Assembly: GCA_021732785.1 (NCBI GenBank)
Contig: JAKFUG010000068.1
Location: forward strand, 1-44,944
DNA from: Planctomycetaceae bacterium
GTDB lineage: Bacteria > Planctomycetota > Planctomycetia > Planctomycetales > Planctomycetaceae
DNA length: 44,944 nt
Direction of reading: 5' to 3'
Both the position numbers and the translations under genes were made by a program. Positions 11,884 to 18,836 of this stretch are shown piece by piece (position 1 is the first letter of the stretch; each line of letters opens with the position of its first letter). The notes under the pieces were generated by a model. The model was not told the origin of the DNA. It did not search any database and was given only the letters and a program-made list of their open reading frames with translations.

Positions 11884-12197
11884 TGGCAGCGACACCGCGC
11901 GGGCCGGGATGGCTTTTTCATGTGACGGCGGGGGCGACGACGGCGTTCATCGTTTCCGTGCTGGCGATGGTCGCCGCACAATTTGGTGACCCGAAGGCCC
12001 CCGTCAACGGCTGGATTGACGACTACGGCGCGATGGTGCTGATGGTGGAGATCGCTGCCATCGGCGTGTTCGGTTTCGCGGCGATGGCGAATGATGCGCG
12101 CGTCACACGGCTGGAACAGCGGGACGTCGGACAGCACCCGGCGGGATCAGCGCGGGGCGCGAAACCGCAAGCGGAGGATGTGGCCGTCACCAAGTAG
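11880..12197 (+). CDS. Small two-helix membrane protein whose C-terminus is repeat-derived
   Basis: 105 residues, starting at ATG 11880 (or 11883) overlapping the ogt stop. Two hydrophobic helices are visible: about residues 11-35 (FHVTAGATTAFIVSVLAMVAA) and about 49-72 (MVLMVEIAAIGVFGFAAM), separated by a short polar loop. The last about 20 codons are unusual: 12151-12173 matches the family D intergenic repeat (GCGAAACCGCAAGCG core) and encodes ARGAKPQAE, and the stop TAG at 12195-12197 is the first three bases of a family C palindrome. Function unknown. Confidence 0.75.
   Translation: MMAATPRGPGWLFHVTAGATTAFIVSVLAMVAAQFGDPKAPVNGWIDDYGAMVLMVEIAAIGVFGFAAMANDARVTRLEQRDVGQHPAGSARGAKPQAEDVAVTK
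12151..12173 (+). repeat. Family D repeat half-copy inside a coding region
   Basis: The 23 bases contain the core GCGAAACCGCAAGCG shared with the full hairpins at 14701-14751 and 29095-29146. The half-copy lies in the last codons of the small membrane protein gene; no complementary arm follows. Confidence 0.75.
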
Positions 12198-12221
12198 CCC
12201 TGTCGCTCCGCGACAGGGCTA
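12195..12221. repeat. Family C palindrome serving two convergent genes
   Basis: TAGCCCTGTCG, five bases (CTCCG), CGACAGGGCTA: an 11-bp perfect stem. The first TAG is the stop codon of the plus-strand gene ending at 12197 and the last CTA is the complement of the stop codon of the minus-strand gene ending at 12219. As RNA it forms a GC-rich hairpin in either direction and may act as a bidirectional terminator, although no long T-tract follows. Paired copies are at 39411-39498 and 44090-44201. Confidence 0.9.
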
Positions 12222-13046
12222 CGTTTCGGAGTTGATCCAACGCCGGATGATTTGCCGGGACGTCCATTCCTGAAATGCCGCCGTGATGGCTTCCGGCGTG
12301 AGTTCTTCAGCATTGCGTGCATCAAGGCGGGTGAAGGATTCCGCGACAGTCTTGCCCGCCGACAGTTGTTCCAATACCGCGTGTTGCCATGCCGGGACTT
12401 CCCAGCGGCGAACAATGAACTCCTGTCGCGAAATCAACAGAGGGACAATGCGCGGCTCCGGGAGCGATGGCGTTTCATCTCGACGCACCGCCGAACGGTA
12501 TTCGTGGACTGGAAAGTCACTGCGGAACAAACGCACGCACGGATAAAACTCGATTCGCCCCGCGGCAAACGCGGCGGCATCGGCAACCTGCAGGCGTTGC
12601 TCCGACGGCAACGGATCGGTCTCGGGCCCTTCGACATCGAACACTTCCGCAATCGTTCGTTCATAGCGTGCGAGATCAACCAGAAAGTCGCCGAAGTCGG
12701 GATGCTCGTCGGTCTTTGCCGGTCGCAATTCCGCGAGAAACTCTGGAAAGCGGCGACCGAGTTCTCCGAGCGTGTAACTTCCGGGAGGACATCGTTCGAT
12801 GTAAGCCACCGCGAACTCGTTGAAAGTGTCATCCCCCACGGCCGCGACCACGGCAGGGAACTCGCTGCGGAGACATTCCCCCAACCGCACGAGATACGCG
12901 GATTGATAAACCCGCAACCGTTCTTCCACCGATAACCGCTGCGAAGGAAGCAAAACATCAATCGACAAACCCGGCATATCGGGCGGTCTGCGGGTGATGG
13001 CCCCGAGCATCCATTGTTGCATGTCCGCCAAGCGCGAAGCGGCCAT
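12219..13046 (-). CDS. DUF2063 family protein (BufC/HvfC-like partner of the MNIO enzyme)
   Basis: 275 residues. The N-terminal about 100 residues match DUF2063 (LADMQQWMLGAIT, LSVEERLRVYQSAYLVRLGECLRSEFPAVVAAVGDDTFNEFAVAYIERCPPGSYTLGELGRRFPEFL). The C-terminal part is variable and ends in a winged-helix-like region (LEQLSAGKTVAESFTRLD ... EWTSRQIIRRWI). In RiPP pathways of the methanobactin and bufferin type, this protein accompanies the DUF692 enzyme and is thought to help bind the precursor peptide. The ATG at 13046 lies four bases after the DUF692 stop, so the genes are coupled. The frame continues open to 13295, but that part overlaps DUF692 and was not used. The stop codon lies in the family C palindrome. 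Confidence 0.88.
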   Translation of the reverse strand: MAASRLADMQQWMLGAITRRPPDMPGLSIDVLLPSQRLSVEERLRVYQSAYLVRLGECLRSEFPAVVAAVGDDTFNEFAVAYIERCPPGSYTLGELGRRFPEFLAELRPAKTDEHPDFGDFLVDLARYERTIAEVFDVEGPETDPLPSEQRLQVADAAAFAAGRIEFYPCVRLFRSDFPVHEYRSAVRRDETPSLPEPRIVPLLISRQEFIVRRWEVPAWQHAVLEQLSAGKTVAESFTRLDARNAEELTPEAITAAFQEWTSRQIIRRWINSET

Positions 13047-13050
13047 CGTT

Positions 13051-13962
13051 TCACTCCGCTTCAATGGCAACGAGGACCGCAGGGTGCGAGACGTGACTGC
13101 CAGTCGTGATGACATTGTCGTTCGGACATAATGAAGGACGAGATGACACGCAATCGCGGGCCCGTTGCACTTCGGCTTCCAACCGGGCGAAGGGCGGGAT
13201 GTTCGCGTCCCATTCGATGAGCGTGGCGGCGTGGGGCGAACGGGCGTGGGCCTCGCGGAACAACTCCCACACGGTGTCAACCACGGGGCCATCATGGGTA
13301 TCGATCACATGCGTATCGAGATCGGTATGCCCCGCGAGATGAAATTGCACGACGCGGTCCGCCGGGATGTTCGCCAGGTACTCGCGCGGATCGAAATCGT
13401 GATTCCGGGATGACACATAGACGTTGTTGACATCGAGCAGCAGCCCGCAGTGGGATTCTTCCGTCAGCCGCGACAGGAACTCCCATTCGGTCATCGTCGA
13501 ATCGCGAAACGTCACATAACTGCTCGGATTCTCCATCACGAGCGGCCGTTCCAGAATTTCCTGCACGGTACGGATCCGGTCCACCACGTGCCGCAGCGAT
13601 TCCTCCGTGAACGGGATGGGTAACAAATCGTGCGTGTTGTGCCCCAGCACTCCGGTCCAGCAGACGTGATCCGAGACCCAAGCCGCCTGCACCGAATCGG
13701 CGAGCGTTTTCAGTTTCGTGAGATATGCGTGATCGAGCGGATCGGTGCTGCCGATCGAAAGACTCACACCGTGCAGCACGACCGGAAAACGCTCGGCGAC
13801 TTGATCGAGCACATACCGCGGGCGGCCGTGGGAGTCGAGAAAGTTTTCGGAGATGGCTTCAAACCAATCGACACTGACATCGTTCGCGAGGATGTGACCG
13901 AAATGCGTCGACCGTAGACCCACGCCCCAGCCCAACGCAGGGAGACCCAAACGGGAGGGCAT
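13051..13962 (-). CDS. DUF692 / MNIO family RiPP-modifying iron oxygenase (BufB-like)
   Basis: 303 residues, the usual length, starting [21 protein letters not shown]692 enzymes have a TIM-barrel holding two or three non-haem irons and oxidise cysteines of a peptide precursor (MbnB in methanobactin, BufB in bufferins, TglH, ChrH). The metal-binding motifs are all visible: [10 protein letters not shown] (H64), SDHVCW (D98, H99), MENPSSY (E144), [11 protein letters not shown] (D177), FHLAGH (H208, H212), IDTHDGPV (D221, H223) and LIEWDANIP (E250). Downstream is the DUF2063 partner; upstream, across a palindromic repeat, is the Cys-rich precursor-like gene. Enzyme class is secure; the exact modification is inferred from family. 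Confidence 0.93.
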
Positions 13963-14020
13963 GGGTAACTTTCCATGTTGAGTGGGGAGGTGACGGCACG
14001 CATCCTGATCGTAGCAACTG

Positions 14021-14102
14021 TGTGCCACTGGCTCTGCCAGTGCCTCGTGAGTCTTTTCGTATGATCAAGAACAACGAAGACACTGGCAGAGCCAGTGGCA
14101 CA
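14021..14102. repeat. Inverted-pair palindromic repeat, family B copy 1
   Basis: Two 22-base arms (14021-14042 and 14081-14102) are perfect reverse complements around a 38-base spacer. Each arm is itself palindromic (CACTGGC-TCT-GCCAGTG), so the RNA can fold as two small hairpins or one long stem. It lies between the Cys-rich precursor gene and the DUF692 gene, inside the likely operon. Copy 2 is at 18761-18836. Confidence 0.9.
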
Positions 14103-14126
14103 CGAATGCAAAGATGCAGCCAAGAT

Positions 14127-14615
14127 TTACGATTTTGCAGGGGCGACGCCGACTTCTTTGCCCTTTTTCTTCATCGCCGTTTCGAACGCCGTGCGGGCTT
14201 TGCCCCAGACTTCGTCCATCAGCGGGACGTGGCAGCCCCCTTCGGCTTTGCACGAATTCTGTCCCGGCAGTTCACCGCAACCAGCTTGACCTTTGCATTC
14301 GTGTGCCCCGCCGCACGCATGATCGGCGACACTGGCACACGTTCCCTGACCAGCGCAGGCATTCTCTTTGCTGCGACCCAGGCCCTTGCAGGTGTTCAAT
14401 CCGCGGCAGACGTGCTTGTCATCGACGAGCAACTCTTCCTGCGGCGTGAGGACCGCGACGTCGGTGGCCCCCGCCGCAGGCATCGGTGGTGTCGTGGCGG
14501 TGGTCGCGGGGGGTTTGGACTGGCTGCACCCCATCGTGCCCCCTGCCGCAAATCCGGCGAACGCCGCCAAAGTCCATTTCTGAAAGTCGCGTCGGTCCAG
14601 TTGTTCTCGATCCAT
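14127..14615 (-). CDS. Cys-rich Tat/lipobox protein, putative bufferin-like RiPP precursor
   Basis: 162 residues. The N-terminus has twin Arg (RRDFQKW, residues 8-14), a hydrophobic stretch and TMGC (Cys30), which reads as a Tat signal with lipobox. A Pro/Thr/Ala linker (31-55) follows. The core (70-128) has nine Cys, all falling in CX5C units: C70-C76, C87-C93, C101-C107, C107-C113 and C122-C128, with pattern CxGxxxC (CAGQGTC, CKGQAGC). His68, His99, His105 and His129 are interspersed. The C-terminus is Lys-rich. The layout resembles Cys-rich bufferin precursors, copper-binding RiPPs modified by DUF692 enzymes, and the DUF692 and DUF2063 genes lie just downstream. AAGGA precedes the ATG by about 8 bases. 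The precursor role is inferred from composition and position. Confidence 0.75.
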   Translation of the reverse strand: MDREQLDRRDFQKWTLAAFAGFAAGGTMGCSQSKPPATTATTPPMPAAGATDVAVLTPQEELLVDDKHVCRGLNTCKGLGRSKENACAGQGTCASVADHACGGAHECKGQAGCGELPGQNSCKAEGGCHVPLMDEVWGKARTAFETAMKKKGKEVGVAPAKS

Positions 14616-18760: not shown

Positions 18761-18836
18761 TGTGCCACTGGCTCTGCCAGTGCCGTCTTCAAAGGGAAGC
18801 GCACTCTCACTTCGCACTGTTAGAGCCAGTGGCACA
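18761..18836. repeat. Inverted-pair palindromic repeat, family B copy 2
   Basis: Arms 18761-18782 and 18815-18836 match copy 1 at 14021-14102 (CACTGGC-TCT-GCCAGTG), but the right arm has substitutions (CACTGTTAGAGCCAGTG), so it is partly decayed. It sits between the convergent DUF1552 and AraC-type genes, where it could act as a bidirectional terminator. Confidence 0.85.

Follow-up and report, generated by a model that had tools for sequence, protein, structure and literature searches.

A bufferin-type operon whose nine-cysteine precursor carries a candidate twin-arginine signal in a Planctomycetaceae bacterium

The operon and its enzymes

The window, that is, the whole 44,944-nucleotide stretch of Planctomycetaceae DNA that was analysed, contains three minus-strand genes spanning 14615-12219: first the precursor, then the MNIO and last the DUF2063 protein. 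This order agrees with that of bufABC in PMC12452194. The features are as follows:

14127..14615, minus strand: bufferin-like precursor of 162 aa, with Tat motif LDRRDFQK and h-region AAFAGFAAGG
14526..14615, minus strand: signal region of the precursor (residues 1-30), with RR at 8-9 and Cys at 30
Precursor layout by residue: Cys30 of lipobox type; 31-66, linker; 70-128, core with nine Cys; about 134-150, conserved helix at the C-terminus
13963..14126, minus strand: stretch separating the precursor and MNIO genes; two inverted copies of a dispersed palindrome of REP-like type are predicted to form a strong hairpin here
13051..13962, minus strand: MNIO (DUF692, BufB-type), likely ATG start, frame open back to a GTG at 14028
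12219..13046, minus strand: DUF2063 partner (BufC / PME-type 1 like), matching PF09836

There is a plausible ribosome site at each likely ATG of the three genes. The MNIO ATG at 13962 is preceded by a GGAAAG-like site and the GTG at 14028 lies within a dispersed palindrome, so the MNIO gene probably runs from 13962 to 13051 rather than from the GTG. The DUF2063 gene (13046-12219) starts four bases beyond the MNIO stop, as the first-pass annotation had it.

Against PF05114 the MNIO scores 361 bits (cut-off 25), and against the BufB equivalog model NF050167 it reaches 361.7 bits, above that model's cut-off of 310. With the HvfB model it scores 265 bits, under the cut-off of 360, and with the ApyH, MbnB and ChrH models it also stays under their own cut-offs. 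The enzyme has the His/Glu/Asp motifs VLHG, SDH, MEN, LDVNN, HLAGH, DTHDG and IEWD, some residues of which are presumably iron ligands. All are matched in alignments with 3bww and 8hci, two DUF692 proteins of solved structure, in agreement with the earlier claim that the expected metal motifs are present. The DUF2063 protein scores 67.9 bits against PF09836 (cut-off 27) and 48.7 bits against NF050145 (HvfC; cut-off 142); a sequence search for a solved homologue gave none at E<=0.001. BufC / PME-type 1 partners combine a DUF2063 domain with an RRE-like one, and it is the former that the PF09836 match shows. It is possible that this partner is a signal-binding chaperone.

The REP-like palindrome TGCCACTGGCTCTGCCAGTG forms inverted pairs at window positions 14023-14100 and 18763-18834, and its exact copies genome-wide number 99 in forward and 96 in reverse orientation. 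The pair between the precursor and MNIO genes gives strong RNA folding (z -8.6), and its hairpin might determine how much precursor is made relative to enzyme. Another dispersed palindrome, GCGCGAAACCGCAAGCG, lies at 12157, 14705/14731, 29100/29126 and 31109, twice as inverted pairs.

The precursor family and its relation to BufA2

The N-terminus of the precursor reads LDRRDFQKW, and a TMGC that satisfies the lipobox rule of thumb, although it is atypical as a lipobox, ends at Cys30. The motifs, the length and the nine core cysteines are as originally described. The core spacings are 5-10-5-7-5-5-8-5, giving CX5C in five of eight intervals and CxG in four of those five; the spacing had been called strictly CX5C, which the other three intervals do not bear out. 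No Pfam family matched the precursor. In NCBIfam at E<=1 only BufA2 (NF050166; 22.9 bits, E 7e-5) and a chance-level bacteriocin model were found, so the bufferin likeness claimed for it appears in the profile search as a weak match below the BufA2 cut-off of 60. Buf1 (DUF2282), oxazolin, methanobactin and TIGR04222 were rejected as identities for the precursor, none of them giving an NCBIfam or Pfam match.

A search for a solved homologue of the precursor gave none at E<=1. The AlphaFold model from a 71-row alignment has a mean pLDDT of 60 with low confidence in the Cys core, and the C-terminal helix (134-150) is its best-modelled part. Folding before export is thus unsupported for the unmodified chain. 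The low confidence of the modelled core is compatible with, but does not prove, folding only upon modification or metal binding.

Relatives were drawn from two sets that overlap in part. A scan of a genome collection gave 406 encoded relatives; the 80 that ranked best in tblastn form the first set, a choice that favours close and full-length ones. The second set was the genes of 59 related genomes, the window's own included. As recorded, the taxa among the best 80 of 406 loci include Schlesneria, Gimesia, Planctomicrobium, Pirellulales and Singulisphaera, and Verrucomicrobia or Limisphaerales is recorded for seven. Of 30 precursor genes found, 29 were read; exactly nine core cysteines are present in 27 and eleven in one, and a stop interrupts the remaining gene. 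The window's spacing recurs in 62 of the 75 parsable loci among the best 80; of the five unparsed loci, four show small differences in the first motif and the fifth is a broken copy. In the 71-row alignment all nine core cysteines are invariant except C76, which is nearly so. The BufA2 model matches 68 of these 71 members at E<=0.01, although the best (E 4e-9) is weaker than the 46-bit match of another singly scored protein. In addition, four of the 71 match NF058595, a 'lipo-invert putative C-terminal anchoring domain'.

Counting MNIOs at 258 bits or more on PF05114, a precursor homologue is present in 25 of the 59 genomes and an MNIO in 26; 25 have both, one has the MNIO only (G026), none has the precursor only and 33 have neither (Fisher 9e-16, a rough guide, as kinship is uncorrected and the genomes are not independent). 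The 33 have distant MNIOs only (98-196 bits) in three cases and none in 30. The first-pass annotation had staked its reading on the Cys-rich gene lying next to DUF692 in relatives. The outcome is mixed: the two adjoin in 19 of the 25 genomes. There is no linked pair in the other six (G019, G021, where the MNIO is cut by a contig end, G027, G031, G032 and G035), and four genomes have extra unlinked precursors: G014 and G024, and G001 and G033, where a second MNIO has no precursor beside it and a second precursor lies elsewhere. Since all 25 genomes with a precursor also carry an MNIO, six of them unlinked, the pairing outlasts loss of linkage.

Distant MNIOs (98-221 bits) occur in several relatives and are the sole kind in G008, G029 and G036; in the three such loci read (L027-L029) no precursor of the nine-Cys type lies beside them. 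In G032 there is an in-frame stop in both the precursor (L044/L098) and the MNIO (L024), reflecting either joint decay or an assembly error.

These data also bear on the suggestion that the precursor stays unmodified, as a Cys-rich lipoprotein of metallothionein-like kind, and that the MNIO acts on another substrate. Among the best 80 of 406 loci, an MNIO frame lies within 900 bases downstream of the precursor in 46, five are too short to tell and 29 have none, as this explanation would have it, although one of the 29 (L141) has its MNIO upstream; additionally, six of the 29 place the precursor just upstream of mogA. Against it, the precursor co-occurs almost perfectly with a high-scoring MNIO even when unlinked and is homologous to BufA2. 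We regard this explanation as very improbable.

The relation to BufA2 was followed across the phylum, where a family-profile search gave a match in 63 of 392 genomes. Twenty stretches with weaker matches were read: an MNIO and a DUF2063 protein are present in 17, and the precursors are mostly BufA2-like with 12 Cys. Four of these weaker-match precursors were scored singly; three are above the BufA2 cut-off, two of them with RR. In an alignment with 12-Cys BufA2-like proteins, every one of the nine cysteines falls at a 12-Cys position, C3, C4 and C10 of the 12-Cys form being gone through eight- and four-residue deletions, and the nine-Cys family adds a new C-terminal tail with an invariant Trp and Arg. 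Two proteins of G251 have 11 Cys together with the tail and RR, and one of them is above the BufA2 cut-off. In an unrooted tree of 90 MNIO rows, the enzymes linked to 12-Cys precursors form one clade (86%), with L195 apart.

The window operon and BufA2 / Buf2 (Buf_6/12Cys, NF050166) share the MNIO and DUF2063 protein, the gene order, the CX5C blocks, the CKGxG and CxVP motifs and a homologous core. In contrast, the window precursor has nine conserved cysteines rather than 6 or 12, falls below the cut-off, has a C-terminal extension of about 30 residues and carries a twin-arginine motif in place of the Sec signals reported for BufA2 / Buf2. Because it departs from BufA2 in score and Cys number and its signal departs from Sec, we file it as a BufA2-derived variant and not as BufA2. 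On alignment evidence, the precursor family is such a variant, with a changed export signal and core.

The export signal

The motif RR.[FL] is present in all 29 precursor genes read and in all of the best 80 of 406 loci (the sets overlap), three awkward starts among the 80 being judged by hand. Across the 71 aligned members R8 and R9 never vary and F11 hardly does. The genome encodes TatC (212 bits), so that a twin-arginine motif and a TatC, the two features expected with a Tat substrate, are found together. The Tat-type motif seen in the single sequence is thus a property of the family, and the conservation of both RR and nine Cys family-wide makes the operon more than a chance observation. 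A lipobox-type Cys is present in 60 of the 80 loci; the 20 that lack it all keep RR, mostly with an AxA-like site by eye.

The same operon and chemistry could be combined with export by Sec, RR being merely part of a basic n-region as in the Sec lipoprotein bufferins. Published bufferins use Sec (PMC12452194). Signal peptides were listed by hand for 37 planctomycete relatives that have 8 to 24 Cys and do not belong to the nine-Cys family; RR is present in 16 and absent in 21, and the 21 BufA2-like signals without RR.[FL] have a Sec-type look and a similar h-region. The NCBIfam Tat model TIGR01409 misses 65 of 71 family members at E<=0.01, matching six, and does not match the window precursor at E<=1. 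On the other side stands the conservation of R8, R9 and F11 noted above. Moreover, in two small controls RR.[FL] was found in 0/14 other lipobox-type N-termini of the same loci, compared with 58/58 precursors passing the same lipobox test, and in 0/14 identified Pseudomonadota precursors (4 Buf2 and 10 Buf1, from 17 plasmid loci of which three without a recognised precursor were left out).

Tat signals are expected to have a less hydrophobic h-region. Consistent with this, mean h-region hydrophobicity is lower in the nine-Cys family (1.64) than in the Sec-type planctomycete relatives (2.11, p 1e-10), the window precursor standing at 1.29; the difference is weaker for the RR group outside the nine-Cys family (1.95, p 0.06). 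Although RR by itself does not exclude Sec, the precursor signal appears to point to Tat, as its conservation supports, and we consider export by Sec improbable. On the unrooted MNIO tree at least three changes between Sec and Tat are needed, leaving out L183, L195 and unlinked rows.

Conservation by region is 0.61 for the signal, 0.19 for the linker, 0.73 for the core and 0.63 for the tail. The h-region pattern A..G...G (AxxGxxxG) is found in 74/80 of the loci, in 14/16 and 17/21 of the planctomycete relatives with and without RR, respectively, and in 1/14 of the Pseudomonadota forms; these counts are descriptive, as the pattern was chosen after seeing the sequences. It thus recurs in both Sec-type and Tat-type planctomycete forms, which homology alone may explain. 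Preliminary results reported in PMC12452194 make the Buf1 signal peptide part of BufB-BufC recognition. The conserved signal region would fit such recognition, although the pattern is post hoc.

Proposed pathway and known systems

The MNIO is above the BufB cut-off and the precursor family is weakly but consistently BufA2-like, so that the operon can be called bufferin-type, which upholds the first-pass annotation in its main point. Taken together, the data suggest a bufferin-type RiPP operon in which cytoplasmic Cys modification is followed by Tat export, lipid anchoring and metal buffering, a reading to which we give a probability of roughly 70%. By analogy with known systems, the BufB-like MNIO and BufC-like DUF2063 protein would oxidise the core cysteines in the cytoplasm, most likely to 5-thiooxazoles. 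The twin-arginine signal would then direct the product to Tat and not Sec. Signal peptidase II would expose Cys30, leaving the peptide lipid-anchored on the outer side of the membrane, and the product of members that lack the lipobox Cys would be a soluble periplasmic peptide. As bufferins do, the anchored peptide may buffer copper or another soft metal.

According to PMC13097082, MNIO-PME1 products, bufferin 1 among them, contain the 5-thiooxazole. That source, which surveyed Pseudomonadota, also describes the captophorins, 5-thiooxazole copper metallophores that share with the window operon an MNIO, a DUF2063 protein (PME1) and a precursor of Cys-Lys type. The captophorin hallmarks are 5-thiooxazole on Cys, absorbance at 305 nm and copper binding, and the window operon is likened to them by its gene content. 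A lipobox signal on an MNIO substrate is likewise shared with lipidated Buf2 and DAG-RiPPs (PMC12452194 and PMC12636315): lipobox signals are predicted for about 16% of Buf2 in the former and lipidated MNIO products are demonstrated in E. coli in the latter. The signals described there are Sec/SPII, whereas in the family studied here RR is constant and the lipobox optional.

A modified, Tat-exported peptide might instead serve a purpose other than copper buffering and act on gold, mercury or zinc, or in redox or sulphur stress. Roles beyond copper are argued in PMC12452194, no test of any planctomycete member was found, and besides MNIO and DUF2063 no neighbour family recurs widely around the 80 loci. 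Among the listed neighbour clusters of at least five loci, none other than those of the precursor, MNIO and DUF2063 spans more than 11 loci and nothing nearby points to copper, the comparison being by clusters and not by family annotation, so that a DoxX in single loci could escape it. On the other hand, bufferins and oxazolin are reported to bind copper (PMC12452194). We see this as a minority possibility, though a more plausible one than either of the two alternatives above, and retain the buffering of copper or another soft metal as the preferred role.

Because Tat accepts folded proteins for export and is inclined to refuse unfolded chains, the Tat route may restrict export to the modified or metal-loaded peptide. 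Tat lipoproteins and Tat cofactor proteins with maturation chaperones likewise have an RR signal and are exported after cytoplasmic maturation; the RR signal is common to these and the window operon, but the cargo here would be a RiPP. More tentatively, and with the balance of probability against it, we propose a class of Tat-routed RiPPs in Planctomycetota and Verrucomicrobiota in which the folding check of Tat couples modification to export, the MNIO-DUF2063 pair holding the signal peptide by its conserved AxxGxxxG h-region until Cys rings or metal fold the core. If this were true, the peptide may even take metal from the cytoplasm with it on export and finally serve as a metal store held by its lipid anchor.

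Bufferins are unusual RiPPs in bearing secretion signals, and according to PMC12452194 some mechanism must prevent export before modification; the operon may show what keeps bufferin-type peptides from leaving before they are complete. Sec signals and Buf2 with 6 or 12 Cys are described in PMC12452194, and a word search of its main text finds neither 'Tat' nor 'Planctomyc'. An Antarctic soil study (PMC8692599) concerns six-Cys DUF692 precursors, almost exclusively proteobacterial. Among the open-licence literature matches listed, no Tat-exported bufferin was found; two that combine RiPP and twin-arginine concern nisin-type peptides, to judge by title or abstract. The Tat, lipobox and CX5C features had been put forward as the mark of an undescribed subclass. 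The absence of a Tat-exported bufferin from the matches listed fits this, as do the Sec signals and the 6 or 12 Cys described for Buf2, but the lipobox is already predicted in Buf2, as stated above, and CX5C blocks are common to plain 12-Cys relatives.

With this family, the range of bufferin-type peptides widens to Schlesneria, Gimesia, Planctomicrobium and verrucomicrobial genomes with precursors that the current NCBI model matches only weakly. It appears to have the signal of a late-acting, folding-checked route in place of Sec, and sister families of the same phylum include both kinds. This natural Sec/Tat pair in one phylum makes it testable whether modification gates export.

Some arrangements at individual loci differ from that of the window. 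At L180 and L182 (G424 and G180), two different 12-Cys precursors flank one pair of MNIO and DUF2063 genes, and L216 (G122:C778) encodes a precursor of Tat type whose 24 Cys form tandem CX5C blocks. Finally, in six of the 80 loci (L069, L072, L074, L075, L076 and L093) an unlinked precursor lies 3-47 bases upstream of mogA, the gene for molybdopterin adenylyltransferase (L074 scored 274 bits and the five others were identified by BLAST to L074), hinting at a tie between the precursor peptide and molybdenum cofactor assembly.
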